Source: a bacterium
Lineage (GTDB): Bacteria; Oederibacteriota; JAAXVQ01; JAUVAV01
Length of the DNA: 64,000 nucleotides
Assembly (NCBI GenBank): GCA_021108215.1
Contig: JAIORK010000001.1
Location: 62,001-126,000, forward strand
Direction of reading: 5' to 3'
Both the position numbers and the translations under genes were made by a program. A model generated the notes under the pieces. That model made no database searches. It was given only the letters and a program-made list of their open reading frames with translations, and was not told where the DNA came from. Positions 37,652 to 61,059 of this stretch are shown piece after piece. Positions within the stretch are counted from its first letter, which is position 1. Each line of letters begins with the position of its first letter.

Positions 37652-37655
37652 GGAC

Positions 37656-39038: not shown

Positions 39039-39040
39039 TC

Positions 39041-40137: not shown

Positions 40138-41169
40138 ATGGGACGCATACTCATAGTACGTTTAAGCTCCATGGGTGATATTATTCTCACCCAACCGGCG
40201 ATCGCGGCGGCACACCGGGCCGGTCATGGAGTGGATTTGGCGGTGCATCCGGACTATGTTGCTTTGGGGAAAATGCTGCCCGGGGTTGACCGGGTATTGT
40301 GTTCAAAAGTGGAATTTGCCGCAGCGTATGATTGGGTATTTGATTTACACGGCACGCTGCGTGCAAGGCGCCTTTTGCGGGAGGTTAAGACCAAACAGCT
40401 CATCCGGTATCGCAAACGGGCAGTGGGGCGCCGGCTTTTGGTTCGGCCCCAGGGCAGATCGGTTTTCTGGAACCGGTTTAGCGGACTAAAAAAAGATGAA
40501 CAGGTTTTAAAATGGTATGGGGAAGCATTGGGCCGGGCAGGGATTACTGTGCCGGAAAAGCAGCCTACCTTGCAGATTTCCGAGTGGGCTCACGCAGCTG
40601 CTTTGCAGACGCTGCAAAAGTACGGGATAAAAAAAGCGGACAGGATTGCGCTGTTTGTACCCGGAGCTAAATGGCGCGCCAAGCGATGGCCCCTGGAGTA
40701 TTTTATTGAAACAGCCAAACAGTTGCAAAAGACGCATAATCTTATCCCGGTTTTTACCGGCAGTATGCAGGAGCGGGAACTGTGCGGGCAAGCAGTTCAA
40801 GCGATTGACAACCGGGTGGTCTCGCTCGCAGGATTGACCAATATCCCGGCCATGGCGGCGGTGTGCAGCCGGGCGGATATCATGATTACCAATGACTCAG
40901 GCCCCATGCATTTGGGGCTGGCAGCCGGTACCTCGGTGGTAGCGCTCTTTGGTCCGACCGTGAGTGCCTTTGGGTTTGCGCCGCAGTTACATCCGCGTGC
41001 CGTTGTTTTGGAAAAAGAGCTGGCCTGTAGGCCCTGTACACTGCATGGTGGCGAGGTCTGCCCTTTAAAACATCATGCATGTCTGCGCGGGATTCAGGTG
41101 GATACGGTTTGTGAAAAAGTCGCAGAAATTTTAGAATTGAATCCCAGAAAAAGAAAAAAGGACGATTGA
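40138..41169 (+). CDS. Glycosyltransferase family 9 (heptosyltransferase-type)
   Basis: 343 residues. N-terminal ILIVRLSSMGDIILTQPAI, middle LFVPGAKWRAKRWPLEYF (nucleotide-sugar binding side), TNDSGPMHLGLAAGTSVVALFGPT, and the Cys cluster CRPCTLHGGEVCPLKHHACL seen in WaaC/WaaF-type enzymes. Probably adds heptose or a related sugar to the Kdo-lipid A core. AGGAAAG precedes the ATG; 4-nt overlap zone with the next gene. Confidence 0.92.
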   Translation: MGRILIVRLSSMGDIILTQPAIAAAHRAGHGVDLAVHPDYVALGKMLPGVDRVLCSKVEFAAAYDWVFDLHGTLRARRLLREVKTKQLIRYRKRAVGRRLLVRPQGRSVFWNRFSGLKKDEQVLKWYGEALGRAGITVPEKQPTLQISEWAHAAALQTLQKYGIKKADRIALFVPGAKWRAKRWPLEYFIETAKQLQKTHNLIPVFTGSMQERELCGQAVQAIDNRVVSLAGLTNIPAMAAVCSRADIMITNDSGPMHLGLAAGTSVVALFGPTVSAFGFAPQLHPRAVVLEKELACRPCTLHGGEVCPLKHHACLRGIQVDTVCEKVAEILELNPRKRKKDD

Positions 41170-41171
41170 GC

Positions 41172-41921
41172 ATGGGCACATCCATCACAGCCGTTATCAT
41201 TGCCAAAAACTCGGCGGCAACCATTCACCAATGTATTGCTGCGCTGCGTTTTTGCGATCAGATTCTGGTGGGTGAAAATAATTCAACGGACAATACCCTG
41301 GAACTGGCGCGAAAAGCCGGGGCCAAGGTGCGTTCGGTTGCCTGGGAGGGCTACGGCAAAACCAAGAACCGGTTGATTGATGAAATTGATTCGGGCTGGA
41401 TTTTATCGATTGACGCCGACGAAGTGGTGACGCCTGAATTGGCCGGGGAGATCCGTCAAATTGCCGAACAAGCAGATGTCCAGGATGCCTATTTCATTGG
41501 ACGCAGAAATTATTTTCTCGGGAAAGTGATTGCCCATTGCGGTTGGCAGCCTGATTGGCAGCTCCGGTTTTTTCGGGCCAAGAGCGCACGGTTTGAGGAA
41601 AAGCATGTGCATGAGGCGCTGGTCACGGAAAAAGGAAAAGGCTATTTTAAGCAGCCGTTGGATCATTATTCTTACGCAACGATTGAAGATTATTTTAAAC
41701 GATTGAATCACTATACAAATTTGGCGGCCCAAGACCGCTTTGAACGCGGGAAACGGGTTTTCGGCTTGCGGATGGTTTTTGATCCGCCCTGGACGTTTGT
41801 GAAAATGTATTTTATTAAGCAAGGCTGGCGGGATGGCTTTGCCGGGCTTGTCCTATGCGTGTTTTCAGCGTTAAATACGCTGGTCAAACATGCCAAGCAC
41901 TGGGAACTGGCGCGAAAATAG
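41172..41921 (+). CDS. Glycosyltransferase family 2 (WaaE/KdtX-like core transferase)
   Basis: 249 residues from ATG 41172. GT-A fold: ITAVIIAKNSAATIHQCI at the N-terminus, NNSTDNTLELARK, WILSIDADEVVTPELAGEI (DxD-type metal site) and the WQPDWQLRFFRAKSARFEEKHVHE region typical of the WaaE/LgtF branch that glucosylates the inner core. The C-terminus has an amphipathic/hydrophobic tail for membrane contact. Closely follows the GT9 gene. Confidence 0.9.
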   Translation: MGTSITAVIIAKNSAATIHQCIAALRFCDQILVGENNSTDNTLELARKAGAKVRSVAWEGYGKTKNRLIDEIDSGWILSIDADEVVTPELAGEIRQIAEQADVQDAYFIGRRNYFLGKVIAHCGWQPDWQLRFFRAKSARFEEKHVHEALVTEKGKGYFKQPLDHYSYATIEDYFKRLNHYTNLAAQDRFERGKRVFGLRMVFDPPWTFVKMYFIKQGWRDGFAGLVLCVFSALNTLVKHAKHWELARK

Positions 41922-41975
41922 AAAATGTGTTTTCTGACATTTTTATCAAAATCAAGTAATCCAGTAGATGATAGC

Positions 41976-42121
41976 GCCGGTCGTCGGAGTGCTTGTTTTT
42001 AAAGAAAAAGAACGCATCAGCAATATAGGTGTCGTTCAAGTGGGTCGGATCGTCGAAGTTTGCTTGGTTGTGTGTTGACAGTATTGGTTTTTCTTTAAAA
42101 ACAGGCATTCCGACGACCGGC
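41976..42121 (+). repeat. Long fold-back element, group A copy 3
   Basis: Arms 41976-42009 and 42088-42121 (34 bp). Two differences, both G.U on the plus strand. The arm GCCGGTCGTCGGAGTGCTTG enters TTTTTAAAGAAAAA. The core (AACGCATCAGCAATA...TCGTCGAAGTTTGCTTGG...GTTGACAG) is the best match to copy 2. It fills the gap between two core glycosyltransferase genes. Confidence 0.92.
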
Positions 42122-42192
42122 TTTGCAACAGGATATTTTGTAAATTAAAAGGGATCATTGCTGAAAAAGCAGCATGTTTCAATGAGGTGACG

Positions 42193-42585
42193 ATGGAAAC
42201 TTATTTAGAGACACAACCAATAAAAAAAGCCGTGCCGATTGTATTTGTTAATTATCATGGGACCATCGGCGGCGGACAGAACCATTTATTGACCATTTTA
42301 GATGGGTTGGACCGGCAACGATTTTTGCCGCATGTGGTTTGCTGCCAGGACGGTCAGTTTGCCAAAGAGCTTCGCCGGCGCGGCATTCCGTTGGAAATTA
42401 TTCCTTTTTGGAAAGGTAAGCTTCGCTACTTGCATAAAAATTTGCCTGCACTCTGGCAATTTTACCAGTATGTGAAAAAGGTGTCCGCTCGTCTGGTGCA
42501 TGTGAGCGGGCTCCAGGAAGCAAAGCTGGCCGCCTATGGATGCAAGTGGGCCCGTGTGCCCATGGTTTGGCTGGTGGCGCCATGA
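42193..42585 (+). pseudogene. Glycosyltransferase family 4, N-terminal half (frameshifted)
   Basis: 130 residues from ATG 42193 (GAGGTGA upstream). VFVNYHGTIGGGQNHLLTILDGL and FAKELRRRGIPLEIIPF are the N-terminal Rossmann half of a GT-B transferase. The frame stops after VPMVWLVAP at a TGA overlapping the ATG of the second half. One extra base (for example C in GCGCCATG) would join both halves. Natural inactivation, an assembly error or an ATGA-coupled two-chain enzyme are all possible. Confidence 0.75.
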
Positions 42586-43355
42586 AAAAAAGACGCAAAG
42601 GTTATGTTGGCCGGGCCATGCAGGCTTTGGCCGGGAAAACTCATACCTTTATTTGTATTTCCGATTATGTTGAGCAGCTGGTAACCGGGTATGGTATTCC
42701 AGCGGCGAAGTGCCGTCTGATTCATTGTTCCACCAATACAGCGGTGAAAAAAGAATTTCCTTCCTCTTTGCGGGAAGAATTGGCGATTGACTACGATGCT
42801 CCGGTGGTGGGTACCACCGGTATTTGGCGGCCCAACAAAGGATTTCCTTATTATATTGCAGCTGCTGAGATTATTAATCGGTGGAATCCCATGGTACGGT
42901 TTTTACTGGGGGGCAAAGCCTATCCAACCGATGCATCCTTTGCAACGCTGCTTTGGATGCGCGGGAGCATTCTTAGGACATCCGGTGTCATGAAATATAC
43001 CGGGTTTTTAGAGGATATTGGGAAATTTATGTCTGCGCTGGATGTTTTTGTGCTTCCAAGCGAGTGTGAACCATTTGGTTTGGTTCTCATTGAAGCCATG
43101 GCGCGCGGTATTCCGGTGGTGGCTACACAAGCAGGCGGGGTTCCGGATATTGTCACCCATGGCGAGACCGGTCTTTTGGTGCCGCCCCGTGACCCGGAAG
43201 CATTGGCCGAGGCGATTAATGATCTTGTATGCCATCCTACCAAGCGGATGCAGATGGGCGAGACGGCAAGGGCACAGGTGAAAGAAAAATTCAGCCGCGA
43301 GACCATGATTAAAAAATATCAAGAATTTTATACAGAGGTTGTACAAGAACAATGA
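42582..43355 (+). pseudogene. Glycosyltransferase family 4, C-terminal half (frameshifted)
   Basis: 257 residues if begun at ATG 42582. Contains the end of the N-domain (FICISDYVEQLVTGYGIP) and the full GT4 C-domain: VVGTTGIWRPNKGFPYYI, YTGFLEDIGKFMSALDVFVLPSECEPFGLVLIEAMARGIPVVA with the E-x7-E catalytic pair, and ETGLLVPPRDPEALAEAI. All catalytic C-domain residues are intact, so restoring the frame should give a normal ~385-residue enzyme. ATGA overlap with the next gene. Confidence 0.75.
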
Positions 43356-44152
43356 TGAAAATTTCTGCGGTCGTACACACGTATAATGAAGAGCACAACA
43401 TAAAGGATTGTCTGGCAACCCTGACATTTGCTGATGAGATCGTTGTGGTGGACAACGAAAGTTCCGATCAGACCGTGGAACTTGCCAAAGCTTGTGGTGC
43501 GCGGATCGCGACGTATGCCGGACACCATGGTTATCCCGAACCGGCGCGGGTTTTTGGATTGACACAGTTAAATCATGACTGGGTGTTTATTCTGGATGCG
43601 GACGAACGGGTTACTCCGGAACTTCGTGCTGAATTGCTTGCAGTTAAGGACGCGGCTCAGGCCCAAGACGGGTATTGGGTCCCGATTAAAAATTTTCATT
43701 TTGGGCGCTGGCTTCAGCACGGCGGTCTTTATCCGGATTATCATATGCGTTTTTTTAAAAGGGAAAAAGGCGGTTATCCGGAAGTGGGGCTGCACCGCGG
43801 GATTGAGGTCTCAGGCGAAACCGGATACCTGCAAGAAAATATTCTGCATTTTTCGTATCGCGACATTTATCATTATTTTGAAAAATTCAATACCTACACA
43901 ACAGTTGAGGCCGAGCGCATACTTACACTCAAACGGCGGCCTACCGGGTATTCGCTTTTAATGAAACCGCTGCATCGGTTTACGAAATCCTATCTTTTCA
44001 AGGGTGGTTTCAAAGATGGATTGGAAGGTTTTTTATTTCATCTTTTTTCTGCTGCATATATTTTCACGAGCGAGGTAAAGGCTTGGGACACCTATCGCAG
44101 ACAAAACGAACATTTGCCGGTTTTTTCAACTATGTTCAAAAGGAAAGCATAA
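43352..44152 (+). CDS. Glycosyltransferase family 2 (WaaE-like)
   Basis: 266 residues. ISAVVHTYNEEHNIKDCLATL, VVDNESSDQTVELAK, WVFILDADERVTPELRAEL (DxD) and DYHMRFFKREKGGYPEVGLHRGIE follow the same pattern as the gene at 41172; both belong to the WaaE/LgtF-like branch but are divergent. The C-terminal hydrophobic stretch LFHLFSAAYIF is membrane-associated. Overlaps the GT4 gene by 4 nt and precedes the WaaF-like gene by 3 nt. Confidence 0.9.
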   Translation: MMKISAVVHTYNEEHNIKDCLATLTFADEIVVVDNESSDQTVELAKACGARIATYAGHHGYPEPARVFGLTQLNHDWVFILDADERVTPELRAELLAVKDAAQAQDGYWVPIKNFHFGRWLQHGGLYPDYHMRFFKREKGGYPEVGLHRGIEVSGETGYLQENILHFSYRDIYHYFEKFNTYTTVEAERILTLKRRPTGYSLLMKPLHRFTKSYLFKGGFKDGLEGFLFHLFSAAYIFTSEVKAWDTYRRQNEHLPVFSTMFKRKA

Positions 44153-44155
44153 ATC

Positions 44156-45202
44156 ATGTCCAAACAGACCCAGGGGCCCAAGAAAATTTTGCTGCGCAGT
44201 CCCAATTGGGTGGGGGACGCTGTCATGGGCACACCGGTGGTGGTTGCCTTGAAAAAAACATTTCCCCATGCAGCCATTCATGTGCTGGCCCGTTCGTGGG
44301 TGGCACCGCTTTGGGAAAATCATCCGGCCATTGACTGCGTGATCGGGTTGGACCGGAAATTGGGATGGGTCCGGTGGATCCAATTGATAATGCAATTGCG
44401 CAAGGAAAAGTATGATCTTACCATTTTGCTGACCAATGCGTTTTCAGCTGCCTGGCTTGCCTTTTGGAGCGGCATTCCCAAGCGTGTCGGCTATCGTACG
44501 GACAATCGTGGCTGGCTGCTCACTCAGGGCGCGGTCTGGAACAAGAGTCTGGAGCAGATTGCGCGGCCGAAAATTTATCTGACCCTCGCCCGGCTGGCCG
44601 GCGCAGACGTGGACCTGTGCGAACACTGGGATTTTGTGGTCAAACTTACTTCTGAAGAAATTGGCGCAGCACGCTCTTTGGTGGGTCCGCATGCCGGGCA
44701 GCGACTGGTGGGGATTGCCCCGGGATCAGTGGCAAAAAGCCGGCGGTGGCCGGTCAAACGCTACGCTCAAATTGTCGATCGTTTGACAGCATCGGGATTT
44801 AAAGTCGTGCTGGTGGGCAGTCCGGTGGATGCGGAGGCGGCCAGGCAGGTTGCGCGCCAGGCAAAAAACAAACCGTTGATTACTGCGGGTCAAACCGGAT
44901 TGCGTACCGGTTTGGCAGTCATAAAACAATTGGCACTGCTGATTAGCAATGATTCGGGGGCCATGCACATGGCCTATGCGCAAGATGTCCCTGTCCTGGT
45001 ATTGCAAGGCGCTGCTGATCCGGCAGTGACCGGTCCTTTTGGAAAACACAGTGCGTATCTACGTGATCATTCTCTGGCATGTGCACCCTGTGTGCGCAAT
45101 GAATGCAAATTCAGCGAGCTCAAGTGTATGCAGCATATTTCTGTGGAGCAAGTCTGGGAAAAAATCCGGGAAATGTTAAAAATCAAGAGTAGAAAGAAAT
45201 AA
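44156..45202 (+). CDS. waaF: Lipopolysaccharide heptosyltransferase II (WaaF-like, GT9)
   Basis: 348 residues. Best match to WaaF pattern: ILLRSPNWVGDAVMGTPVV, GYRTDNRGWLLT, GIAPGSVAKSRRWPVKRYA, LISNDSGAMHMAYAQDVPVL and the Cys cluster CAPCVRNECKFSELKCMQ. Transfers heptose to the inner core. The other GT9 modules in the window lack the NWVGDA motif. Confidence 0.9.
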   Translation: MSKQTQGPKKILLRSPNWVGDAVMGTPVVVALKKTFPHAAIHVLARSWVAPLWENHPAIDCVIGLDRKLGWVRWIQLIMQLRKEKYDLTILLTNAFSAAWLAFWSGIPKRVGYRTDNRGWLLTQGAVWNKSLEQIARPKIYLTLARLAGADVDLCEHWDFVVKLTSEEIGAARSLVGPHAGQRLVGIAPGSVAKSRRWPVKRYAQIVDRLTASGFKVVLVGSPVDAEAARQVARQAKNKPLITAGQTGLRTGLAVIKQLALLISNDSGAMHMAYAQDVPVLVLQGAADPAVTGPFGKHSAYLRDHSLACAPCVRNECKFSELKCMQHISVEQVWEKIREMLKIKSRKK

Positions 45203-45274
45203 TGAATGTGATTGTACGTGATCAAAGAAAAATACTAGTATTATATTAGTGAAAAAATCAAGTATGCGGTTTTT

Positions 45275-45372
45275 GACCATAGAACATATCATTTTTCTTG
45301 GATGCGGAACTCGCCCTCCTTCGGAGAAGCTTAAACAGTCCTATCCTTCGAAAAATGATATGTTTTATGGTC
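45275..45372 (+). repeat. Long fold-back element, group B copy 2
   Basis: Arms 45275-45297 and 45350-45372 (23 bp); one difference, G.U on the plus strand. The arm GACCATAGAACATATCA enters TTTTTC. The core carries GCGGAACTCGCCC, an inner CTCC-TTC-GGAG hairpin and AAGCTTAAACAGT, matching copy 1 at 17578 although the arms share nothing. It lies in the 265-nt gap after waaF. Confidence 0.9.
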
Positions 45373-45467
45373 TTGTCACAGTGTTTTCGAATTCATTGAT
45401 GTGATACAAAAAATAACTGCATTAGGATGATTTTGCAGCCGTGTAATTTTTTTGACAGGAGTGGCGT

Positions 45468-46430
45468 ATGATGAAAAGTAATCATATGGTGGTGATCAAA
45501 GTTCGCGCACTGGGAGATACGCTGCTGGCAACCCCGGCCTTGCGCGCGCTGCGCCATGCCAATCCGGAAGCCATGATAACCGTGGTTGTTTCATCCTCCG
45601 GCGCAGAGGTGTTGGCAGGTAATCCGCATGTAGACCGGGTATTGGTTTATGACAAAAAGGACCTGCTGACATCCCTGGGTTTTATGGCCCAACTGCGTCG
45701 TTCACGCTATGATCTGGCGATCACTTTGCACGCTTCTTTTAGGACCGCGCTCTTAGCCCGGGCTACAGGCGCAAAAAAACGGGTTGTCCACAATCACAGC
45801 GGTCCCGACCATTTTACTACCATTCCCATCACAGCAAAAAAAGAATCCAAGTCAGCCATTGAACGTGATCTTGATGTTGTCCGCGCAATGGGGATACCCG
45901 ATACTGGAAGCACACTGGAGTTTGTTCTGGAAAAAGCAGACCGGCTTTGCGTGGATGGTTTTTTTAGGCAGAATAATTTGGCAGCTGACAAGTCCTTTTG
46001 GGTGCTGGCACCAGGGGCGGGCAAGGCGCGCAAGCGCTGGACAGCGGGGCAAGCAGTTGCATTTTTGGATGGCATGGAAAAAAAACGGTACGGTCCCTGG
46101 ATTTTACTTTCAGGACCCCAGGAAGAAGCGCTTACCCGGGAAATCAGTCTGTACGCTAAATCCAGGCCGTTGGTTTTTCAGCAAGAATTAAAAGAAGCCG
46201 GTGTTTTAATGCAGATGAGCCGCGGGGTGGTTACCTGTGATTCCGGACCCAAACATATCGCCGTGGCAGTGGGTGCCAAAACAGTGACACTTTGGACGGA
46301 TGAACCTGAAGCGGAATGGCACCCCTATGATCTTGCCCGGCACACGCTGGTGCGGTCGGTTACCGGCCGGGTGGAGGATATCCCGGCGAAGCAGGTCATG
46401 CAGGCGTTTATGAACCATTTTGGGAAATGA
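45468..46430 (+). CDS. Glycosyltransferase family 9
   Basis: 320 residues. VVIKVRALGDTLLATPALRALRH at the N-terminus, WVLAPGAGKARKRWTAGQAVAFL in the middle and VTCDSGPKHIAVAVGAKTVTLWT near the C-terminus. It lacks the Cys-rich tail of the other GT9 proteins. AGGAG precedes the double ATG. Probable envelope sugar transfer; acceptor unknown. Confidence 0.88.
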   Translation: MMKSNHMVVIKVRALGDTLLATPALRALRHANPEAMITVVVSSSGAEVLAGNPHVDRVLVYDKKDLLTSLGFMAQLRRSRYDLAITLHASFRTALLARATGAKKRVVHNHSGPDHFTTIPITAKKESKSAIERDLDVVRAMGIPDTGSTLEFVLEKADRLCVDGFFRQNNLAADKSFWVLAPGAGKARKRWTAGQAVAFLDGMEKKRYGPWILLSGPQEEALTREISLYAKSRPLVFQQELKEAGVLMQMSRGVVTCDSGPKHIAVAVGAKTVTLWTDEPEAEWHPYDLARHTLVRSVTGRVEDIPAKQVMQAFMNHFGK

Positions 46431-47402: not shown

Positions 47403-48398
47403 GTGGCAAATACGATTAAAACCATTCTCGATACCTGTAATCCGCCTGCGGGAGCTCACTTAAATTGGTTTGCCAAGTGGCTGGTCATTATTCGCGCTTG
47501 TGTCTTTTCCATGACAGTATTTTCTCCATTAATCGCCATTTTACTGGCTTGGCGCACAGGCCAGACCGATTGGATTAGAGCACTTTTGGTTATACTCGGA
47601 TTGTTGCTCGCGCATGCGGCCAACAATGTGCTTAATGATCTTATGGATTACCGCAGCGGGGTGGATACACCTGATTATTATCGAGTGAAATATTCTTTTC
47701 ATCCTTTGACCTCGGGGTGGGTGACCCAGCGCCAATTGTTTGGTGCTTTTCTGCTTTTTTCTTTGCTGGATCTGGGATTGTTGCTGTATTTCATCAGTCT
47801 GCGCGGCTGGGGTGTGGCGGTTTATGCTTTGGCCGGTTTTTTCATCAGCGCGGTGTATGTGGGCGGCCGCTATTCCCTGAAGCATCTTGGTTTAGGAGAG
47901 ATCGCGGTCTTTTTTGTCTGGGGGCCTTTGATGGTGGGCGGGACCTATTTTGTGATTGCAGGATCGGTGCCCTGGAAAGTGTACCTGGCCTCGATTCCTT
48001 ACGCATTGATGGTGACCACTATTTTAATGGCCAAGCATATTGACAAGCTGGAAAAAGACCGGGAGAAGAAAATTCACACCCTGCCGGTTATTTTGGGGCA
48101 TAGCCGTGCCATGGCGGTTGTCAAAGGATTGATTGTTTTATTTTATGTGGCTGTGGTTGCCGGTGCCATTACCAACATGTTACCTTTGGCAGCCTTGCTG
48201 GTATTTTTTTCCATTCCGCGTGCCCGCTCGGTATGGCGCTTGCTCTCCCAGCCGCGGCCGACATCACCGCCGGCGAATTGGCCGATTTGGCCATTGTGGT
48301 ACGTGGGCTACTGCTTTCACCTTATACGGCTGGCCGGGGCACTTCTGTTGGGTGGTATGTTTGGACAGATACTGATAGAACGCCTATGGTTGGGATGA
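47403..48398 (+). CDS. UbiA-family membrane prenyltransferase
   Basis: 331 residues, about eight or nine transmembrane helices. The two aspartate-rich motifs are present: NVLNDLMDYRSGVDT (NDxxDxxxD, ~residue 78) and DKLEKDREKKIHT (~residue 219), which bind the Mg-diphosphate of the prenyl donor. MenA-like, UbiA-like or other lipid synthesis (for example of an undecaprenyl-linked sugar) cannot be separated by eye. Start is GTG with AGGAGG upstream. Confidence 0.88.
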   Translation: MANTIKTILDTCNPPAGAHLNWFAKWLVIIRACVFSMTVFSPLIAILLAWRTGQTDWIRALLVILGLLLAHAANNVLNDLMDYRSGVDTPDYYRVKYSFHPLTSGWVTQRQLFGAFLLFSLLDLGLLLYFISLRGWGVAVYALAGFFISAVYVGGRYSLKHLGLGEIAVFFVWGPLMVGGTYFVIAGSVPWKVYLASIPYALMVTTILMAKHIDKLEKDREKKIHTLPVILGHSRAMAVVKGLIVLFYVAVVAGAITNMLPLAALLVFFSIPRARSVWRLLSQPRPTSPPANWPIWPLWYVGYCFHLIRLAGALLLGGMFGQILIERLWLG

Positions 48399-48410
48399 GG
48401 CATCGGAAAA

Positions 48411-49886
48411 ATGAATGTAAACGCAGGGAATTTATGGAATAAAAAAATGTGGTTAGGGCTAATTTTGATTAGCGCATTTTTTGTTCGGTTTACCCATTTT
48501 GGAATTCACCGTTTTCACGAGGATGAGGCGCTTTACGCTTCCTGGGGAATACGGATATTTGAACATTATGATCTTTTGCTCAACGGAGCATCCGGTGTTG
48601 ATAAACCCCCACTGCTTTTTTATCTTCAAGCCATAGCCTATTTGTTTTTTGGCATCACAGAGAATGCCGCCCGGATACCCAACCTCATTGCCGGAGTGGT
48701 ATCTGTCAGTCTGATTTATAAAATCGGGAAGTATTATTTTAACGAAAAGACCGGATTGGTGAGTGCGTGGCTCATGGCAATTTCACCTTTGCATATTGCC
48801 TATAGCAATACTGCATTTACCGATATGACAATGGTGATGTTAGGATTGGCCGGCATTGCGGCCATGACGAGTAAACGTTTTGCCTTGGCAGGTGTGCTGG
48901 TGGGGCTTTCTCTGGCAACTAAACAATTTGGTGTTTTTTGGGTACCGTTGATTATTGTCCTGTTGATGTTGGAGATTATGCAAGACACCGCTTTGCGGGA
49001 ATGCTTCCGTGATGTGCGTTTGAAATCATTTTTAAAAGGTTTTTTTATTACGATTGGAAGCTTGTTGTTGATTACTGCGTTTTCCAATCCTTTTTGGGGA
49101 TTTATGCTGTATTTACATAAAAGCTCTTCAACCATAGAAAGTACAGTCCGGGGATTGACATTTTGGATGAGCCACTATGAAAAAATATTTGAACTGCCGC
49201 TCCTGAACATCATTGGATATGTTTCCATAGTCTGGCTTGTACTGATAAACAGTCATGCATTGTTGTTTTCTAAAAATGTGACAAAGCGACAAAAGATTAA
49301 TAGAATTGCTCAATTGATGTTTGTTGTGTTTATCGCAGGCTATCTCGTGAGTTTGTTGTTGCTTAAACCCTTCCAATATGTCCGCTATGCTGTTCTGTGG
49401 GTTCCTTTTGTTGTGTTGATTTCAGGTGCGTTTTTAGTTTATATTGAAAATTTATTGAAAAAAATAATCCATGAGAAGGGCACTGTTGTCATGGCAATCA
49501 TTTTTCTGATTGGATGTGGAATGTTAACGTTTCAATTCATTAAGAAAGACACATTGCAATACGGTGCTTTTTATAGGAGCAATGATGGCATAGAGCAAGT
49601 GGCGGCATATTTAAGGGAGATAGATACTGATGACAAGATCTTGCTTATGCGTGATTCGGGATGGTGTTATAAGTTTTATGCAAATGGAATTAGTTTTTTT
49701 CAAAAACAGGATGTCGAAAAATTGACGGACATTATTGATATTGTAGAAAAAAATTCCGGGAAGAAGATATTTATCACAAGTCATTTGGGGAACGAGCATT
49801 TCAATAATATTTTGAAAAGCAGCGGGAGATTGGAAGTGGAAGTTGTGCTGAAAAGCGAGCGCTATGAATTGTTTCTTTTACGATAA
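48411..49886 (+). CDS. GT39/ArnT-type polytopic glycosyltransferase
   Basis: 491 residues, about ten transmembrane helices. HEDEALYASWG at ~residue 35 and GASGVDKPPLLFYLQAI at ~60 are the periplasmic catalytic loop signature of the dolichyl-phosphate-mannose/ArnT-like (PMT_2) family, which takes sugars from a polyprenyl phosphate donor. The C-terminal ~120 residues form a soluble domain. Follows the UbiA-type gene by 12 nt. AT-richer than neighbouring LPS genes. Confidence 0.88.
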   Translation: MNVNAGNLWNKKMWLGLILISAFFVRFTHFGIHRFHEDEALYASWGIRIFEHYDLLLNGASGVDKPPLLFYLQAIAYLFFGITENAARIPNLIAGVVSVSLIYKIGKYYFNEKTGLVSAWLMAISPLHIAYSNTAFTDMTMVMLGLAGIAAMTSKRFALAGVLVGLSLATKQFGVFWVPLIIVLLMLEIMQDTALRECFRDVRLKSFLKGFFITIGSLLLITAFSNPFWGFMLYLHKSSSTIESTVRGLTFWMSHYEKIFELPLLNIIGYVSIVWLVLINSHALLFSKNVTKRQKINRIAQLMFVVFIAGYLVSLLLLKPFQYVRYAVLWVPFVVLISGAFLVYIENLLKKIIHEKGTVVMAIIFLIGCGMLTFQFIKKDTLQYGAFYRSNDGIEQVAAYLREIDTDDKILLMRDSGWCYKFYANGISFFQKQDVEKLTDIIDIVEKNSGKKIFITSHLGNEHFNNILKSSGRLEVEVVLKSERYELFLLR

Positions 49887-49889
49887 TTT

Positions 49890-50098
49890 GGTGTTTTTTT
49901 CAACAATGCCTTTCTTTGCACAGTTCTTTCGAGCTGATTTTTGGAAATTGCCGGGGGTTGGCGTGTCCAGGGGTCCAATCCGGTCGCGTACATGATACCT
50001 GCCAGGGTCATGGGCAGGGGAATGAAATTCTGCATTTGTTCCACGCGTAAATTGTGTTTTTGGGCAAAACGGTTGACGGCTTGCATGTCCGCGCGCGT
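49890..50098 (-). pseudogene. Displaced 3' end of the YgiQ-type radical SAM gene
   Basis: Minus-strand reading gives DMQAVNRFAQKHNLRVEQ, IPLPMTLAGIMYATGLDPWT and KNQLERTVQRKALLKK, matching the C-terminus of the gene at 51332-53095. The two DNA copies lie 1,485 nt apart in direct orientation, almost identical over the central ~120 nt and looser at the ends. No radical SAM core or start belongs to it. Confidence 0.88.
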
Positions 50099-50189
50099 AC
50101 CGCCAATTGAAAAATAAGATTGATGCATAAACAGGATGTGTGCAATAATACTATTGGATGGCAAAAATACACGAACCGAGGAACGCGGC

Positions 50190-53706: not shown

Positions 53707-54588
53707 ATGGCAAAAAGTAAGGGAATTTATATTTTTTTGTTGATGGTTTTTTTTGCTGGGCTGGCAATTTTCAGTTTTTGGCAATTGGCACACTATGCCC
53801 GGGTCATTGAGGAAACCATTGCTCATTTCCAACAATGGCCCGGCGTCACCGCTCCGGCTCCAAGTCTTGATTCCAAGGTTATGATGACACAAAATAAAAA
53901 TATAACCGGAAATGTGTTTATTGGACAACTGGCACATCGGATTGAACAAAATTTGAAAAACGGGTTAACCACCTATATAACTGATTACCAGGACTTGAGA
54001 ATTGATATGGCGCCTTTTGTGAGTGAGGAAATCAGGCAGGGGTATTTTAAAAATCTTCGGATTGCCGTGCGTCATGGAAAAATCAGGCATCCCGAATATA
54101 ATGCGTGGCTGGTACCCTTTGAATCCATTGATTGTTCCTTTCAGGAATTGGTGATGGATCTTGAGCAATTAAAACAGGAACGTATTGCACCTGCCGGGTT
54201 GGCGTCCGTGTCGGTACATGAAATTGTGCTGGATGAACAGGCGTTCAACGAAGCGCTGCACAATGCGCCGGGCAGACTGGCGTTGCTCAGTGTTTCTTTC
54301 CGGGAAAGAGGTATTCGAGTGATTTGGTCAGGCAAGCCCCGGATGGAAGCGGACATAGGCTTGCGGGTTGTGACACAGGGGGAATCTTCATCATCAGATC
54401 AATTGCTGGCTGAGGTGCATCACCTGAAGATTAACGGCCTGCCGGTTCCATCAGGAGTCGTCAGACGCTTTGCCAATAAAATTAATCCTGTGCTGCCTTT
54501 GAAAGCCTTTGAGAGTTCCATGATTCTGGGTGCAGTCCATTGCGGTCAGGGCAAACTTAGAATCGGCCTGGAAAATAGTACGCAATAA
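53707..54588 (+). CDS. Exported LmeA/DUF2993-like lipid-binding protein
   Basis: 293 residues. N-terminal membrane anchor or signal (IYIFLLMVFFAGLAIFSF), then a domain of ~230 residues. Its beta pattern (YFKNLRIAVRHGKI, VPFESIDCSFQELVMDLEQL, LLAEVHHLKINGLPVP, KINPVLPLKAF, GKLRIGLE) resembles DUF2993/LmeA proteins. It matches the C-terminal domain of the next gene step by step, so the two are paralogous domains. In actinobacteria LmeA aids lipomannan elongation; here that is analogy only. GGAGAGG precedes the ATG. Confidence 0.65.
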   Translation: MAKSKGIYIFLLMVFFAGLAIFSFWQLAHYARVIEETIAHFQQWPGVTAPAPSLDSKVMMTQNKNITGNVFIGQLAHRIEQNLKNGLTTYITDYQDLRIDMAPFVSEEIRQGYFKNLRIAVRHGKIRHPEYNAWLVPFESIDCSFQELVMDLEQLKQERIAPAGLASVSVHEIVLDEQAFNEALHNAPGRLALLSVSFRERGIRVIWSGKPRMEADIGLRVVTQGESSSSDQLLAEVHHLKINGLPVPSGVVRRFANKINPVLPLKAFESSMILGAVHCGQGKLRIGLENSTQ

Positions 54589-54608
54589 TCAATCAAAAAG
54601 GACTATCA

Positions 54609-56918
54609 ATGCCAAATCGTCAAAATGAAAAAGTCATACGTATTCCGGATGTTTTTTCCGGAGAAAAGCTGCTTTCCAGCGGATCTCTGATTGCGGCACT
54701 GGTTCTATCGCTGGTTTTGGCAAATTTTGTTTGGCTGTTTTTTGACAAACAACCCCAGGCATGGGACGAATCCATTCATTTCATGGGCGCGGTGGGGTAT
54801 TATAAAACCTTGCTGCAGGGTGGGTGGGATGTATGGTACAACCTTTTGTATCAATCTGATTTTTATCCACCGCTGATTGAAGTGTTGACCGGACTTGTTT
54901 TTCTTGTCACCAAACCTGTGCCGGATGTTGCGGCGTTTTTGAATCTTTTTTATTTGCTGGGGATTGTCTGGGTATTGGTTTTGATAGGCCGGACGCTTTA
55001 TGATGAGACCACGGGTATTTTAGCCGGGTATTTATTCAGCGCTGCGGTTATGGTCGCGATTCAGTCGAAGTATTTTATGCTGGATATTCCCATGGTTCTG
55101 CAATATTGTCTGGGATTTTATTTTTATCTTCAATCGGAAAATTTCAGAAAAAAACGCTGGTCATTGCTTTACGGTATGATGTTCGGCCTTGCCATGTTGA
55201 ACAAGTGGAGTGCACTTTTCTTTTTTGCGCCGCCGCCGCTTATCCTGGGAGTCATTTCATTGTTTCGTCAAGAAGGGGAGGGGAAAAAAATATGGCGCAA
55301 TATTCTGCTGGCATTTGGTTTGGCAGGATTGATGGCCGCGCCCTGGTATAGTGTGCATTTTATCAAGCTGGTGAAAAACACGTCCGGGTATATTCATGCC
55401 CGCGGTGTGTTGGAAAATGATCCGCCCCTGACATCGCCTTTGGCATGGATTTATTACCTGGGCAGCGTTTTTAGACAGATGTCCTGGCCCCTCGGGTTAA
55501 CCGTGGTTGGCGGGTTTGTGGTTGCCATGTTCAAAAAACGGCATCGTCTCCTTCTCGCGGTCTGGTTGGGGTCGCCGTATATTATATTGATGCTGATTAG
55601 AAATAAAGATCATCGCTATACGCTGCCCTTATTACCCATCATTTGCCTGGTTGGGATTAGCTGGATTGCGGCGCTAAAGCCGGAGACAAAAAAGAAATGG
55701 GTGCCGATTATTGCCTTGGCAGCGTTGGCACAGTTTGCGTATGTCCATATGGGGCAGCACTTGGGAGGGTTTGAGCGGCTATTGAGTGCCCGGCTTTTGG
55801 GAACGTCGCTGATTGAATCCAAAGCACCAGACAGCCGGATTTGGCCTCTGGATGCTATTCTGGCGGATGTGGCGCATGTCGGCGGCAACTTGGGCCGGCC
55901 GCCCCAATTGCGGGTGATACCCGATGCGGCCAAATTTTCCAGGGTTACCTTTGTTGTCGCACAATCCAGACAACCGCGTGGTGTGCAATTGGCATCGACA
56001 ACGGATTGGCCGGCATTTACAGATTTTGTGGTTACCAAGACGAAACACCTCGGGCTTGAGTTCAACATTGCCAAACCCAAGGCCATTACCGAAGCATTGG
56101 CAAATTCAACGACTGCAGTTGGAAAACGTTTTGAATTAATGCGTACCTATCCTTTGCCGGATGGCTCGGATGCGTTGTTGTACCGCCGCCGGGAGGTGTT
56201 TCATCATTTGTCGCAGGAACGCATCATCCTGCTTCTCAAGCATGAATTGGACCAATTGCTTTCAGCCTATTTGCGCAACTGCGAAGACCTTTCCATTCGT
56301 ATTACATCCGGGCCCGACCAATCAACCCGTATCGGTCATTTTCCGGAAATTTTGGTGGAGGCACGCAACGGTGAAGTGGGTGATTTTAAACACAAACCTT
56401 TGGGTGTGCCGTTTTCCCGTTTGAAATTAGCGTTGAAGGACTTGGTGATTGATCTGGACTGGCTGGAGCAGGGAAAGCCGGTTCCTTATTATATTGACGC
56501 AATGCGGGTGATGCATGTTCAACTGAAAGATGAGGGCCTGAACCGGGCATTTCAAAAAGCGAATGATGATCTGAAAAATCTGCGTGTTTTTTTTACCGGC
56601 AGTACGATGGCGGCACACTGGATCGGAGATATTCCGCTTTCGGTTAATCTGGCATTGGAAGTTGTACCGGATAAGGACCGGCCGGAGTCAGACAATCTGC
56701 GGTTTCGTATTGAAAAAATAAAGTGTTTGGGTATTCCCATTGCCGGCTTTTTGATACAACCCCTGGTGGCGGATTTTAATCCGCTTTTTAAATTGGCGGG
56801 ATTTCCCGGCAAGATTGTCCTGGGACAATTGCGCCTGGAAAAAGGTATTTTGCGCATGGGCATAGAGAAAAAAGAGCAGTGGCAGCGGGATGTTGTTGAG
56901 ATAAAGAAAATGCAATGA
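54609..56918 (+). CDS. Fusion: GT39/ArnT-type glycosyltransferase with LmeA-like domain
   Basis: 769 residues. Residues 1-~530 are a polytopic PMT_2/ArnT-type transferase: QAWDESIHFMGAVGYYK catalytic loop near residue 50, then FYPPLIEVLTGLVF and ~10 helices with a soluble tail. Residues ~535-769 repeat the LmeA-like domain of the preceding gene (HFPEILVEARNGEV, VPFSRLKLALKDLVIDLDWL, IKCLGIPIAGF, DFNPLFKLAGF, GILRMGIE). Such a fusion joins a polyprenyl-phosphate-dependent sugar transferase to a putative lipid-binding domain, presumably on the periplasmic side. Twenty-nt gap after the standalone copy. Confidence 0.78.
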   Translation: MPNRQNEKVIRIPDVFSGEKLLSSGSLIAALVLSLVLANFVWLFFDKQPQAWDESIHFMGAVGYYKTLLQGGWDVWYNLLYQSDFYPPLIEVLTGLVFLVTKPVPDVAAFLNLFYLLGIVWVLVLIGRTLYDETTGILAGYLFSAAVMVAIQSKYFMLDIPMVLQYCLGFYFYLQSENFRKKRWSLLYGMMFGLAMLNKWSALFFFAPPPLILGVISLFRQEGEGKKIWRNILLAFGLAGLMAAPWYSVHFIKLVKNTSGYIHARGVLENDPPLTSPLAWIYYLGSVFRQMSWPLGLTVVGGFVVAMFKKRHRLLLAVWLGSPYIILMLIRNKDHRYTLPLLPIICLVGISWIAALKPETKKKWVPIIALAALAQFAYVHMGQHLGGFERLLSARLLGTSLIESKAPDSRIWPLDAILADVAHVGGNLGRPPQLRVIPDAAKFSRVTFVVAQSRQPRGVQLASTTDWPAFTDFVVTKTKHLGLEFNIAKPKAITEALANSTTAVGKRFELMRTYPLPDGSDALLYRRREVFHHLSQERIILLLKHELDQLLSAYLRNCEDLSIRITSGPDQSTRIGHFPEILVEARNGEVGDFKHKPLGVPFSRLKLALKDLVIDLDWLEQGKPVPYYIDAMRVMHVQLKDEGLNRAFQKANDDLKNLRVFFTGSTMAAHWIGDIPLSVNLALEVVPDKDRPESDNLRFRIEKIKCLGIPIAGFLIQPLVADFNPLFKLAGFPGKIVLGQLRLEKGILRMGIEKKEQWQRDVVEIKKMQ

Positions 56919-57008: not shown

Positions 57009-57734
57009 ATGAATCTCCCAATTTTGATGTATCACAAAATTCAGCCGCCGGAACCCAACAGTGATCTTGCTGTATCTGTGGAGGCTTTTCAGGACCAGAT
57101 GGCATGCCTTAAGCGCAGGGGGTTTGAGACGGTTTCATTGGAACAACTCAGCCGGGCATGCCGTGACGGTGCGGCACTGCCCAAGCGTCCTGTGGTGATT
57201 ACATTTGATGACGCCTATCAGAGCGTCTTTGATTATGCGCGACCGGTTTTGGAAGCACAAGGATTTACAGCAACCGTCTTTGTCGTGGCACGGGCCATCG
57301 GGAAGGACAATGTGTGGGATAAGGGGACCGAGGTTAAACGCGATGCCTGCATGGATGCGGACGCACTTAAGCACTTGGCAGCCGTTGGCTGGGAAATCGG
57401 GTCCCATGGTTTGAATCACAGCAATCTTACCCGTGTTTCAGACAAAGAAATATCTGAGGAGCTCGTAGAATCACGTTCCTTTTTGGGGACCTTGTTCAAC
57501 CGGCCGGTCACAGTATTTTGCTATCCCTTTGGCGCTTGTGATCAGCGGGTCAGGGATGCTGCGGCCACGGCAGGCTATACAACAGCCTGTGCGATTTCTC
57601 CGGGAACCGCTTCGGTGACAGCTGATTTGATGGCATTGCGGCGCGTGTATGTGAAGCCGTCCGATGCTATCTCAGATTTTAAAAGAAAAATATCAATGTG
57701 GTACCTGGTTTACCGGGCGTGGAGGAAGCGATGA
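57009..57734 (+). CDS. Polysaccharide deacetylase (NodB-type, CE4)
   Basis: 241 residues. LPILMYHKI at the N-terminus, VITFDDAYQSVFDYA (catalytic Asp-Asp), IGSHGLNHSNL (HxxxxH metal site) and VTVFCYPFGACDQRVRDAA. Removes N-acetyl groups from envelope or capsular sugars. No signal peptide, so it may act in the cytoplasm or leave by another route. No ribosome site is visible. ATGA overlap with the next gene. Confidence 0.92.
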   Translation: MNLPILMYHKIQPPEPNSDLAVSVEAFQDQMACLKRRGFETVSLEQLSRACRDGAALPKRPVVITFDDAYQSVFDYARPVLEAQGFTATVFVVARAIGKDNVWDKGTEVKRDACMDADALKHLAAVGWEIGSHGLNHSNLTRVSDKEISEELVESRSFLGTLFNRPVTVFCYPFGACDQRVRDAAATAGYTTACAISPGTASVTADLMALRRVYVKPSDAISDFKRKISMWYLVYRAWRKR

Positions 57735-60013
57735 GTCTTACCCGTAGTACAGCTGCTTTGCGTTTGCAGCGGTTTTCTTTTTGGGCGTTGTCTGTCTTTG
57801 CTGTTTTTGCAGTGGCAAGCATCGCTTTGCAGAATTTTATTTTTCTGGCTCTGGTGGCATGGATTATCGGGATGGGGCTTAAGCGGCGCTGGCAGGTTGT
57901 GCCGACACCCATGAACCTTCCCTTGCTGCTGCTGGGTATTGCCTTGGTGGCTGCCTCGATTTGGGCGGGACGGATGAACCCCAGTCTTTTCGGGTTGCGC
58001 AAGGTTGGTTTATTTGCAGTCTTTTTTCTGACCACAGCGTTGGTAACCCACCCCCTCAAAGCGGACAGGATCTTAAATGTATTTATTCTCGGTGCCACAG
58101 TATGCGCCATCGGGTCAATTGCCGGTCATCTGCTGGGTTGGGACGGCGGGCGGGCGCATTCATTTTCCGGGGATTATATGGCAGCCGGCGGCATGTATAT
58201 GCTCTCATTTATTTTAAGTCTCTCCCGGTTTTTGTATCAGGATAAAACCAAGCAATGGTTTTGGCTGGGGTGCGCCGGCATGATTGGTCTGGCCCTGTTG
58301 CTGACATATACCCGTTCATCTTGGATCGGTGCGGCAGTGGCCCTATTGATTCTCGGTGCCTTTCGGGATTGGCGCCTGCCGCTGATTATTTTAGGGGGCG
58401 TGATTGTTTTTCTGCTGGTTTTTCCTAAAAATCCAGTCTCGCAGCGGGTATTTTCGCTGACCGTGAAGCATCATTCCAGCAATTCAGAGCGGCGGATGAT
58501 GTGGGTTTCCGGATTGAAATTGGTCAAAAATCAGCCGCTGCGGGGCTATGGGGTGGATAATTTATCGCAGGTCTATGGCAAGGTCGCCAATCCTGTGGCA
58601 ATTGAACAGCGTCCGCCGCATGTCCATAACACGCTTTTGCAAATAGCCATCAACGGCGGTTTGGTGGCTGCGGGATTTTTTCTTTGGTGGATTGTTGTGG
58701 TGATTTTTTTCGGTATTCAAGGCTGGAAATTTAATCGCGTACACGCACCGCCGCGCGCAGGATCTGCGATTGGCATTACGGCGGCTTTTGTTGGATTTAC
58801 CGTCAACGGTCTGTTTGAATTTAATTTTGGGACATCCCAGGTCATTACTATTGTCTATTTTTTGATTGGGTTACTGCCGGCCTATCTGGCGGTTGATCCG
58901 GCAAATTCGGAATGGCAGCTGCCCAAACGACCCAAACTGCTTTTTTTACGTCCCCGCTTCCGGGGCGATGTGATGATGGCTTCAACCGTGCCGTATTTAA
59001 TTAAGCGTGATTTTCCGCATGCGCAAGTGGACCTGGTGACAGAACCGGCTTGTGTGGGCGCAGCCGGCGGTACAGCCGGATGGGACCATGTCATCTCATT
59101 GCCGCGGCATGATAACCTGGCTTGGTGGAAAGTCGTCCGGCGTTTGCGTGCTGAAAATTATGATGCCGCATGTGATCTTTTCGGCAATCCTCGCAGTGCC
59201 ATGCTGGTGTATGCCAGCGGTGCCAATTTAAAAATTGGGCCGCGTGTTACCGGCTGGGACTTGTTTTTTCATCTGATTACCAAAGCGAACCGTACCGGTC
59301 CGCGTCCGGCATGGGAAGCCTATTTTGACATTTTACGCAGCTTTGGTATGAAACAACTCTCGGTCAGGCCGCACTGGGAAATTAGCGCTGAGGATGACAA
59401 GTGGATTAAATCATTTTTAAAAGAACGGGGTGTGCGTCCGGGTAAAGTATTGGGGATTTTTCCCGGCGGCAGCCATCCCGCCAAGCGCTGGCCTTTGGAA
59501 AATTTTTTGGAAGTGGCCCGGCTGGCACCGAAACAATTAGGTTTGAAGGCGATGTTTGTATTCGGGCCGCTGGAGAAAGATTTGAAGCGTGGCTATATGC
59601 ATGCTGCCGGTAAAATGTTGATGAGTATTGAAGGCTTGCCCCCGGGGCGGCTGGCGGCGCTTTGGTCGCATTGTGCAGTGGTCCTTTCCAATGATGCTTT
59701 TCCAATGCATCTGGGACCGGCGGTGGGAACGCCCACGGTAGGTCTGTTTGGCCCGGGTGATCCGCAGGTATGGTTTCCTTATTCAGAGCGCAGCGGTCAC
59801 CGGGCATTGCATCATCAGCTGGATTGCTGGCCCTGCCACCTGGATAGCTGCGCGACCATGAAATGCTGGGAGGAATTAACTCCGGCAACAGTGATGGGTG
59901 TTATTAAAAATAGTTTGCCAAGGAACCGTTCGGCGAAAATGGCATTGCCTGAGAAAACCAGCCGAAAGAAAAAAGCGGTTATCAAGAAAAAGTCTAAGAA
60001 AAAAATATTATGA
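57731..60013 (+). CDS. Fusion: O-antigen ligase/polymerase (Wzy/WaaL) with GT9 transferase
   Basis: 760 residues from ATG 57731 (GGAGGAAG upstream, overlapping the previous stop). Residues 1-~400 form ~11 helices with the Wzy_C pattern: LLTYTRSSWIGAAVALLIL, the periplasmic loop RMMWVSGLKLVKNQPLRGYGVDNL and PPHVHNTLLQIAINGG with the ligase His. Residues ~415-735 are a complete GT9 domain: LLFLRPRFRGDVMMASTVPYL, LGIFPGGSHPAKRWPLENF, LSNDAFPMHLGPAVGTPTVGLFGPG, CWPCHLDSCATMKCW. A Lys-rich tail ends the protein. Ligase and heptosyltransferase are normally separate and on opposite sides of the membrane. Confidence 0.88.
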   Translation: MSLTRSTAALRLQRFSFWALSVFAVFAVASIALQNFIFLALVAWIIGMGLKRRWQVVPTPMNLPLLLLGIALVAASIWAGRMNPSLFGLRKVGLFAVFFLTTALVTHPLKADRILNVFILGATVCAIGSIAGHLLGWDGGRAHSFSGDYMAAGGMYMLSFILSLSRFLYQDKTKQWFWLGCAGMIGLALLLTYTRSSWIGAAVALLILGAFRDWRLPLIILGGVIVFLLVFPKNPVSQRVFSLTVKHHSSNSERRMMWVSGLKLVKNQPLRGYGVDNLSQVYGKVANPVAIEQRPPHVHNTLLQIAINGGLVAAGFFLWWIVVVIFFGIQGWKFNRVHAPPRAGSAIGITAAFVGFTVNGLFEFNFGTSQVITIVYFLIGLLPAYLAVDPANSEWQLPKRPKLLFLRPRFRGDVMMASTVPYLIKRDFPHAQVDLVTEPACVGAAGGTAGWDHVISLPRHDNLAWWKVVRRLRAENYDAACDLFGNPRSAMLVYASGANLKIGPRVTGWDLFFHLITKANRTGPRPAWEAYFDILRSFGMKQLSVRPHWEISAEDDKWIKSFLKERGVRPGKVLGIFPGGSHPAKRWPLENFLEVARLAPKQLGLKAMFVFGPLEKDLKRGYMHAAGKMLMSIEGLPPGRLAALWSHCAVVLSNDAFPMHLGPAVGTPTVGLFGPGDPQVWFPYSERSGHRALHHQLDCWPCHLDSCATMKCWEELTPATVMGVIKNSLPRNRSAKMALPEKTSRKKKAVIKKKSKKKIL

Positions 60014-61059
60014 AAATACCGGAGGTGTCTAAAGTACGCAGCATACTGGTTGTGAAATTGCGGGCACTCGGTGATGTTTTGACCACCTATCCGTTGTTGC
60101 GGGCACTGAAAGAATACTATCCACAGGCCCGGTTGAGTATGATGGCGGACGATAGCTATCAGGATATTCTTGAAACCAATCCGCGGATTGATGCGCTGCG
60201 CCTGCATCCGGCAAGTCAACTGCGTCAGGCCGGGCAAGGGGATGCATTGCGTCAGCAATGGCAGGCCATTCGAGCCATCCGGCAGGAAAAATATGATTTG
60301 TATATTGATCTTTATGGGAGTCTGCGCACTGCGCTGTGGGGTTATTTAGGCAAGATTCCTTATCGTATGGGATTTGATCTGCGGGGGCGGAAGTATTTTT
60401 ATAACCATACCATCCAGGCGAAATACCGTTATGTTGTGGATTTGAATTTGCAGTTTGCCCAGGCATTGGGATGGGAAAAAAAAAGTAATCAGCTTGAATT
60501 TTATACAACGCCGCAAGATGAGGTCCGGGCGCACGAGCATTTAAAGCGGCAGCATTGGAATGCCGCCAAGCCGTATATGGTTGTTTCGCCCGGTGGCGGT
60601 TGGCCGTTGAAACAATGGGGTGCCAAGCGGTTTGGCAGGGTTGCCAAGGCAATGGCAGACAAAACCGGTTGCCAGATTGTTCTGTCCGGCAGCCAGGCGG
60701 AAACATTACTTATACAGACTTGTGGCGCTGCTGCGGATATTCCTGTGATCAATGCGGTTGGCCTGCCCTTGCGGCAGGTGGCAGCCATCATTAAGGGAAG
60801 CCGTCTTTTTTTAGGGAATGATTCCGGTCCCAAATATTTTGCCGAGGCTTTCGGTGTGCCGACCCTGATCTGTTACGGACCCACCGACTATGTGAACAAC
60901 AATCCCCAACGACCGCAGAATCAAGTGGCTTGTTTTCAGACTGAGTGCCGTCCTTGTCATTCTGAAATTTGCCGTATGCCGTCGCGGGACTGTATGAATA
61001 GAATTTCAGAGGATGAGGTTGCGGCCCGGGCTTTGAAGTTGTGGGAGAAAAACGGGTAA
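60010..61059 (+). CDS. Glycosyltransferase family 9
   Basis: 349 residues. SILVVKLRALGDVLTTYPLLRAL at the N-terminus, PYMVVSPGGGWPLKQWG, FLGNDSGPKYFAEAFGVPTLICYGPT, and CFQTECRPCHSEICRMPSRDCM. Most similar by eye to the gene at 45468 at the N-terminus, but it keeps the Cys cluster. ATGA overlap with the ligase/GT9 fusion, making a single transcription unit with the deacetylase. Confidence 0.9.
   Translation: MKIPEVSKVRSILVVKLRALGDVLTTYPLLRALKEYYPQARLSMMADDSYQDILETNPRIDALRLHPASQLRQAGQGDALRQQWQAIRAIRQEKYDLYIDLYGSLRTALWGYLGKIPYRMGFDLRGRKYFYNHTIQAKYRYVVDLNLQFAQALGWEKKSNQLEFYTTPQDEVRAHEHLKRQHWNAAKPYMVVSPGGGWPLKQWGAKRFGRVAKAMADKTGCQIVLSGSQAETLLIQTCGAAADIPVINAVGLPLRQVAAIIKGSRLFLGNDSGPKYFAEAFGVPTLICYGPTDYVNNNPQRPQNQVACFQTECRPCHSEICRMPSRDCMNRISEDEVAARALKLWEKNG

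Follow-up and report, generated by a model that had tools for sequence, protein, structure and literature searches.

A GT-C glycosyltransferase with a C-terminal LmeA/DUF2993 domain in Candidatus Firestonebacteria, and its recurrence in other phyla

Why should a membrane-embedded glycosyltransferase end in a domain of a lipid-binding family? The question is posed by a bacterial DNA stretch of 64,000 nucleotides (contig JAIORK010000001.1, termed the window in what follows), in which a protein of 769 residues joins a GT-C-type transferase to an LmeA/DUF2993 domain (termed the fusion), just downstream of a gene for a stand-alone LmeA-like protein (termed the free protein). The window genome belongs to Candidatus Firestonebacteria.

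The family is best introduced through mycobacteria, where LmeA is a phospholipid-binding protein that supports the GT-C enzyme MptA and keeps this polyprenyl-phosphate-mannose-dependent mannosyltransferase at its normal level under stress (PMC7643837). The authors of that work proposed help to MptA, lipomannan traffic, or both as the function of LmeA (PMC7643837). Rv0817c is reported to be essential for growth of Mycobacterium tuberculosis, and the DUF2993 family is predicted to be composed of Chorein-N and TULIP, its listed members coming from actinobacteria, cyanobacteria and some firmicutes (PMC6791001).

The two proteins and their domains

An earlier sequence-only reading had drawn attention to the two open reading frames, and they are as it described them: 293 and 769 codons for amino acids, on the same strand. 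The gap between them is 20 bases, with AAGGA just upstream of the ATG of the longer one. Their parts are:

53707..54588, + strand: stand-alone LmeA/DUF2993-like protein, 293 aa (Pfam PF11209, hydropathy, LmeA tree)
53932..54567, + strand: LmeA domain of the free protein, aa 76-287 (PF11209, E 4e-5, 24.2 bits)
54609..56918, + strand: GT-C glycosyltransferase-LmeA fusion, 769 aa (Pfam and alignment)
54681..55748, + strand: membrane-embedded GT-C part, aa 25-380, ArnT-like (PMT/PMT_2 matches; profile match to ArnT 5EZM)
54762..54779, + strand: W52-D53-E54-S55-I56-H57, predicted catalytic motif in the first periplasmic loop (alignment conservation)
55749..56213, + strand: predicted periplasmic linker region of the transferase, aa 381-535, with conserved LPDGSxALLYRR (alignment; side deduced from KPETKKKW)
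56232..56855, + strand: fused LmeA/DUF2993 domain, aa 542-749 (PF11209, E 5e-11, 43.5 bits; AlphaFold model)

Both halves of the fusion pass curated Pfam cut-offs: PMT (PF02366) matches aa 105-253 with 38.4 bits (cut-off 22.7), PMT_2 matches aa 87-220 with 34.4 bits (cut-off 26.1), and the LmeA score exceeds its cut-off of 27.3. This upholds the earlier assignments of a GT-C-type partner and of LmeA/DUF2993 membership. The free protein falls narrowly below the LmeA cut-off. In a BLASTP alignment the fused and free stretches match over 215 residues ungapped, with 25% identity, 47% positives and E 1e-27; the previously claimed match of about 235 residues to the C-terminus of the fusion is therefore about right, the alignable part being 215. 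These two proteins are the only LmeA matches in the whole genome (Pfam), and NCBIfam has no named family for either.

The fusion is not an artefact of assembly or frame. Two independently assembled contigs labelled Candidatus Firestonebacteria carry close homologues with the same full-length architecture (46-48% identity over the whole length), and the same architecture in 12 other genomes of the phylum also counters this explanation.

The profile of the transferase family found a single solved structure, that of ArnT (5EZM, E 1.1e-8); no other match carried weight. ArnT, a member of CAZy family GT83, glycosylates lipid A. The earlier label 'GT39-type' is thus loose: the PMT match passes its cut-off, but among solved structures the search led only to this GT83 enzyme. 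D53 is kept in 32 of the 33 type-1 fusion rows that reach its column, and the adjoining Glu position is mostly E or H. Alignment of the fusions in the phylum also shows conserved WDES, YPPL, NK..RY and LPD motifs in the transferase and GDF.H in the LmeA domain. From what is known of its family, the transferase half would use a polyprenyl-phosphate sugar.

On inspection of the sequence, the positively charged N-terminus ahead of helix 1 would place the loop with this Asp outside. A conserved positive loop ahead of the last helix (KPETKKKW in the window) would likewise put the LmeA domain, and all else beyond about residue 381, on the outer side. Judged by this charge pattern, the fused LmeA domain, lying after the last transferase helix, is predicted to be on the periplasmic side. 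The free protein has one hydrophobic stretch only, an N-terminal signal anchor (aa 6-24) with positive residues ahead of it (hydropathy). The positive-inside pattern and the anchor thus agree with the periplasmic location earlier proposed for both LmeA copies.

In the AlphaFold model of the fused LmeA domain alone (pLDDT 80.5, pTM 0.77) the first helix is long, and there are also a beta meander and a further unit of helix and strand. The full-length fusion, modelled with three sequences, reached a pLDDT of 41.5, at which no conclusion on contacts between the domains can be drawn. Foldseek searches of PDB and BFVD with the domain model gave no significant match (best E 0.009, TM about 0.2). The TULIP proteins OrfX/P47, juvenile hormone binding protein (JHBP) and BPIFA1 recur, only among these insignificant matches, which is suggestive at most of a TULIP fold. 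No solved PF11209 structure came up when the PDB was searched by sequence, whether the query was the domain, the domain profile or a strong free PF11209 protein. Membership of the LmeA family makes lipid binding by the domain probable.

Spread and origins of the fusion

The sequence-only reading had suggested a search for further fusions of GT-C enzymes to DUF2993; many exist, so that the absence of any other fusion, which it had named as a ground for refutation, is not borne out. In Candidatus Firestonebacteria they are present in 13 of 45 genomes (G000, G002-G007, G016, G017, G020, G029, G035 and G039), with identities to the window fusion from 54% down to about 23%. Among 384 genomes searched with PF11209, all seven LmeA matches in frames longer than 700 aa are GT-C-type proteins, four of them outside the phylum (G079, G128, G260 and G336); the remaining matches lie in frames of 473 aa or less.

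This PF11209 search is unbiased, whereas a profile of the LmeA domain that we term A4 has fused copies among its source sequences and so yields rates that favour fusions. With that bias, A4 matched long frames in 41 of 95 genomes (about 43%) of the phylum of G128 (45 matches, four in short frames; a Pfam check covered 20 of the 41), in 18 of 77 of the phylum of G336, in 2 of 5 of that of G260 and in 3 of 7 of that of G079. LmeA domains on GT-C proteins were also found in G159, G296 and G281. In a set of 61 long frames with an LmeA domain, drawn from five phyla, Pfam at E 0.01 found PMT_2 in 59 and LmeA in 39. The phylum of G128 is probably Methylomirabilota, since three genomes of one of its families (f205) encode particulate methane monooxygenase, which points to Methylomirabilis, though G128 itself lacks the enzyme.

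Some loci have further copies. G260 carries two tandem GT-C-LmeA fusions (L060:5513-9915), one with a strongly diverged LmeA domain, and in G035 an LmeA-like gene broken by one TAG codon lies directly downstream of the fusion (L021:3564-4268). Free LmeA genes elsewhere lack a GT-C neighbour within 1.5 kb.

When 27 fused and 28 unfused GT-C parts are placed in one tree, the fused enzymes of Candidatus Firestonebacteria share a clade with those of the phyla of G128 and G336 (SH-aLRT 99). The fused enzymes of the phyla of G079 and G260 fall elsewhere, and a second fusion of G004 falls among unfused transferases. A single origin of all fused transferases is rejected by the AU test (p 5e-5, or p 3e-4 without the second fusion of G004), values to be read with the caveats of a quick tree, long branches and a group defined by the trait itself. 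The pairing of GT-C enzyme and LmeA domain therefore arose at least twice. The tree of LmeA domains has a clade of 19 fused and two free copies (96/97) and, among free LmeA proteins, a second fused group of five (97/94), a split that mirrors the transferase tree. Within the first clade, domain and transferase appear to have travelled together.

The origin of the free protein can be approached from the same tree. It groups with the free LmeA protein of G003 and the LmeA half of the second G004 fusion (98/85), and this group stands next to fused domains from the same families. The parsimonious reading is that the free window copy is a fused domain that was duplicated and then detached.

The second fusion of G004 (L061:5995-8286) lies directly upstream of that genome's main fusion. 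The nearest kin of its transferase are unfused, 38-39% identical enzymes of the window genome itself (C26; L127, 531 aa) and of G003 (L128, 549 aa). They keep the D-E motif (GLSWDEP and GVAWDER), where the second fusion has GLSIAEP. With AE in place of DE, the second fusion may be catalytically impaired, perhaps an inactive enzyme that retains its LmeA domain. Its transferase half reaches 20 bits against PMT_2 (cut-off 26.1), and a profile made from its family matches a PMT_2 protein of G457 with E 2e-33; by these profile comparisons it is a remote PMT_2 relative. In G004 the counterpart of the free window protein is thus joined to a different enzyme, so that LmeA and GT-C are linked by gene fusion for a second time within one bacterial family.

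The envelope locus and the predicted role of the LmeA domain

The physical link between LmeA domains and GT-C enzymes is established as recurrent, and its place on the periplasmic face is predicted. Natural single chains of LmeA-type domain and GT-C enzyme occur in several phyla and arose more than once. This speaks for a direct action of LmeA, and such repeated joining suggests a helper that handles lipids for these enzymes. The genes around the fusion bear on which lipid this might be:

36521..40081, + strand: lpxB, waaA (KDO transferase) and lpxK (Pfam, E 1e-95, 2e-61 and 1e-89)
40138..46427, + strand: three genes of the GT9 heptosyltransferase type and one GT2 gene, interspersed with other ORFs (Pfam)
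47403..49886, + strand: UbiA-family prenyltransferase and unfused PMT_2 GT-C enzyme, 12 bases apart (Pfam)
57009..61059, + strand: polysaccharide deacetylase, O-antigen ligase (Wzy_C)-GT9 fusion and GT9 gene (Pfam)

LpxB, WaaA and LpxK share the locus of the fusion. They identify the host as a diderm that makes lipid A, as the sequence-only reading had held, and place the fusion within an LPS-type locus. Among relatives of the same family, the DNA fetched shares only parts of this locus: in both G003 and G004 the fusion has the Wzy_C-GT9 gene on its downstream side, and in G004 the deacetylase as well. No lipid A genes were seen near the fusions of G006 and G128, whose surroundings look unrelated (ORFs inspected without a Pfam scan). 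The lipid A setting thus holds for the window, and the substrate may differ at those two loci.

Several other features of the locus were observed. The Wzy_C-GT9 protein (57698-60013, + strand, 771 aa) has Wzy_C at aa 195-329 and a GT9 heptosyltransferase domain at aa 476-713, and is matched by the same type of protein in G004 (L061:15566-17905) and G003 (L062:12836-15172). By eye, the motif of the UbiA-family gene (within 47403-49886, + strand) looks closer to MenA than to polyprenyl-phosphoribose synthase. A stretch of 211 bases in the 3′ end of a radical-SAM-like gene (51332-53095) is doubled (49894-50104 and 51379-51589, 90.5% identical); between the copies lies an AAA_14/DUF4143 ATPase gene (50136-51335), which gives the appearance of an insertion with duplication.

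We read the fusion as a GT-C enzyme of the ArnT/PMT_2 kind, working at the periplasmic face with a lipid-handling module of its own on the acceptor or product side, a reading that we hold as readily as we would doubt it. Our preference for the acceptor or product side, itself a matter of about even chances, comes from the lipid A locus, the relationship to ArnT and the mycobacterial precedent. The membrane part would take a sugar off a polyprenyl-phosphate donor and transfer it by means of the Asp of the first periplasmic loop, as its family leads one to expect. The C-terminal LmeA domain, in the periplasm by its predicted topology, would receive acyl chains in a groove of the TULIP/Chorein-like kind expected from its Pfam family, hold the lipid acceptor or product beside the active site and aid in passing it on. 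In the window genome this lipid would most likely be lipid A-core or another envelope glycolipid. The free upstream protein, as a detached copy, could act in trans for the same or a second GT-C enzyme. We infer both that acceptor rather than donor is bound and the direction of transfer. Against this reading count the lack of a significant structural match for the domain model, the loci of G006 and G128, and the free LmeA genes elsewhere without a GT-C gene nearby.

The sequence-only reading had instead proposed that the LmeA domain presents or extracts the lipid substrate, which we take to mean the donor: the domain would capture the polyprenyl-phosphate sugar and deliver it to the active site of the GT-C part. 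Such donors are indeed used by GT-C enzymes, and the fused transferases, being of several subtypes, are likelier to have a donor type in common than an acceptor. However, most PMT_2 enzymes of the same genomes, which have 3 to 49 PMT_2 genes each, are unfused, and to our knowledge the solved GT-C enzymes draw their donor from the bilayer without an LmeA-like domain. We consider a hand-over of donor unlikely; a role on the acceptor or product side agrees no less well with the lipid A locus and with what is known of LmeA and MptA in mycobacteria.

It is equally improbable, in our estimate, that the LmeA domain moves no lipid and instead keeps the transferase folded, protected from proteolysis or dimerised. 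Loss of LmeA in M. smegmatis does leave less MptA protein while the mRNA is not lowered (PMC7643837), as such a role would predict, yet unfused transferases of the same superfamily do without the domain, the family is predicted to act in lipid transfer (PMC6791001) and the mycobacterial protein binds phospholipid (PMC7643837).

Very doubtful is a generic beta-rich periplasmic extension with no special lipid role, its LmeA label a weak family match: several fused copies in distant families do score under the Pfam cut-off and no solved structure matches the domain model, but the window copy reaches 43.5 bits and is 25% identical to the free exported protein, the tree puts the fused type-2 domains amid free LmeA proteins, and the same domain was fused independently to different GT-C subtypes.

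Returning to the acceptor or product reading, it allows a wider and more tentative proposal. Across bacteria, LmeA/DUF2993 domains might serve periplasmic GT-C glycosyltransferases as dedicated lipid-handling subunits, binding the lipid acceptor or the product and linking sugar transfer with the transport of lipid, LmeA-MptA being one case and the fusions a repeated joining elsewhere; we regard this as possible, with the balance tilted against it.

Comparison with known systems

We found no description of a GT-C/LmeA fusion in the open-access literature (subscription papers and automatic database listings lie outside this scope), and the words 'fused' and 'glycosyl' are absent from the DUF2993 paper (PMC6791001). 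The fusion and its recurrence thus appear undescribed, and appear to be a widespread, repeatedly evolved combination of known parts. The novelty claimed by the sequence-only reading has to be narrowed, since LmeA support of the polyprenyl-phosphate-mannose-dependent MptA was already published for mycobacteria (PMC7643837); the association of LmeA with GT-C enzymes is therefore not wholly new. The fusion adds a single polypeptide in which the action of LmeA is testable by deleting or mutating one domain. The fusions moreover mark a class of envelope glycosyltransferases that is frequent in one large environmental phylum.

Three known systems resemble the fusion in part. ArnT (5EZM, GT83) shares the GT-C membrane part, the periplasmic Asp and the PMT-family profile, but lacks an LmeA domain. 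A GT136 enzyme is a GT-C transferase with an added periplasmic carbohydrate-binding module (PMC11127046), and so also carries an extra extracytoplasmic domain for substrate handling; its extra domain binds glycan (PMC11127046), whereas that of the fusion is from a lipid-binding family. In the LmeA/MptA pair (Rv0817c and its M. smegmatis orthologue; PF11209) a periplasmic LmeA-family domain likewise supports a polyprenyl-phosphate-dependent GT-C enzyme (PMC7643837). There the two are separate proteins, MptA is of another GT-C family and the product is lipomannan, whereas here they form one polypeptide, with a transferase of the ArnT/PMT_2 kind, in a diderm that makes lipid A.
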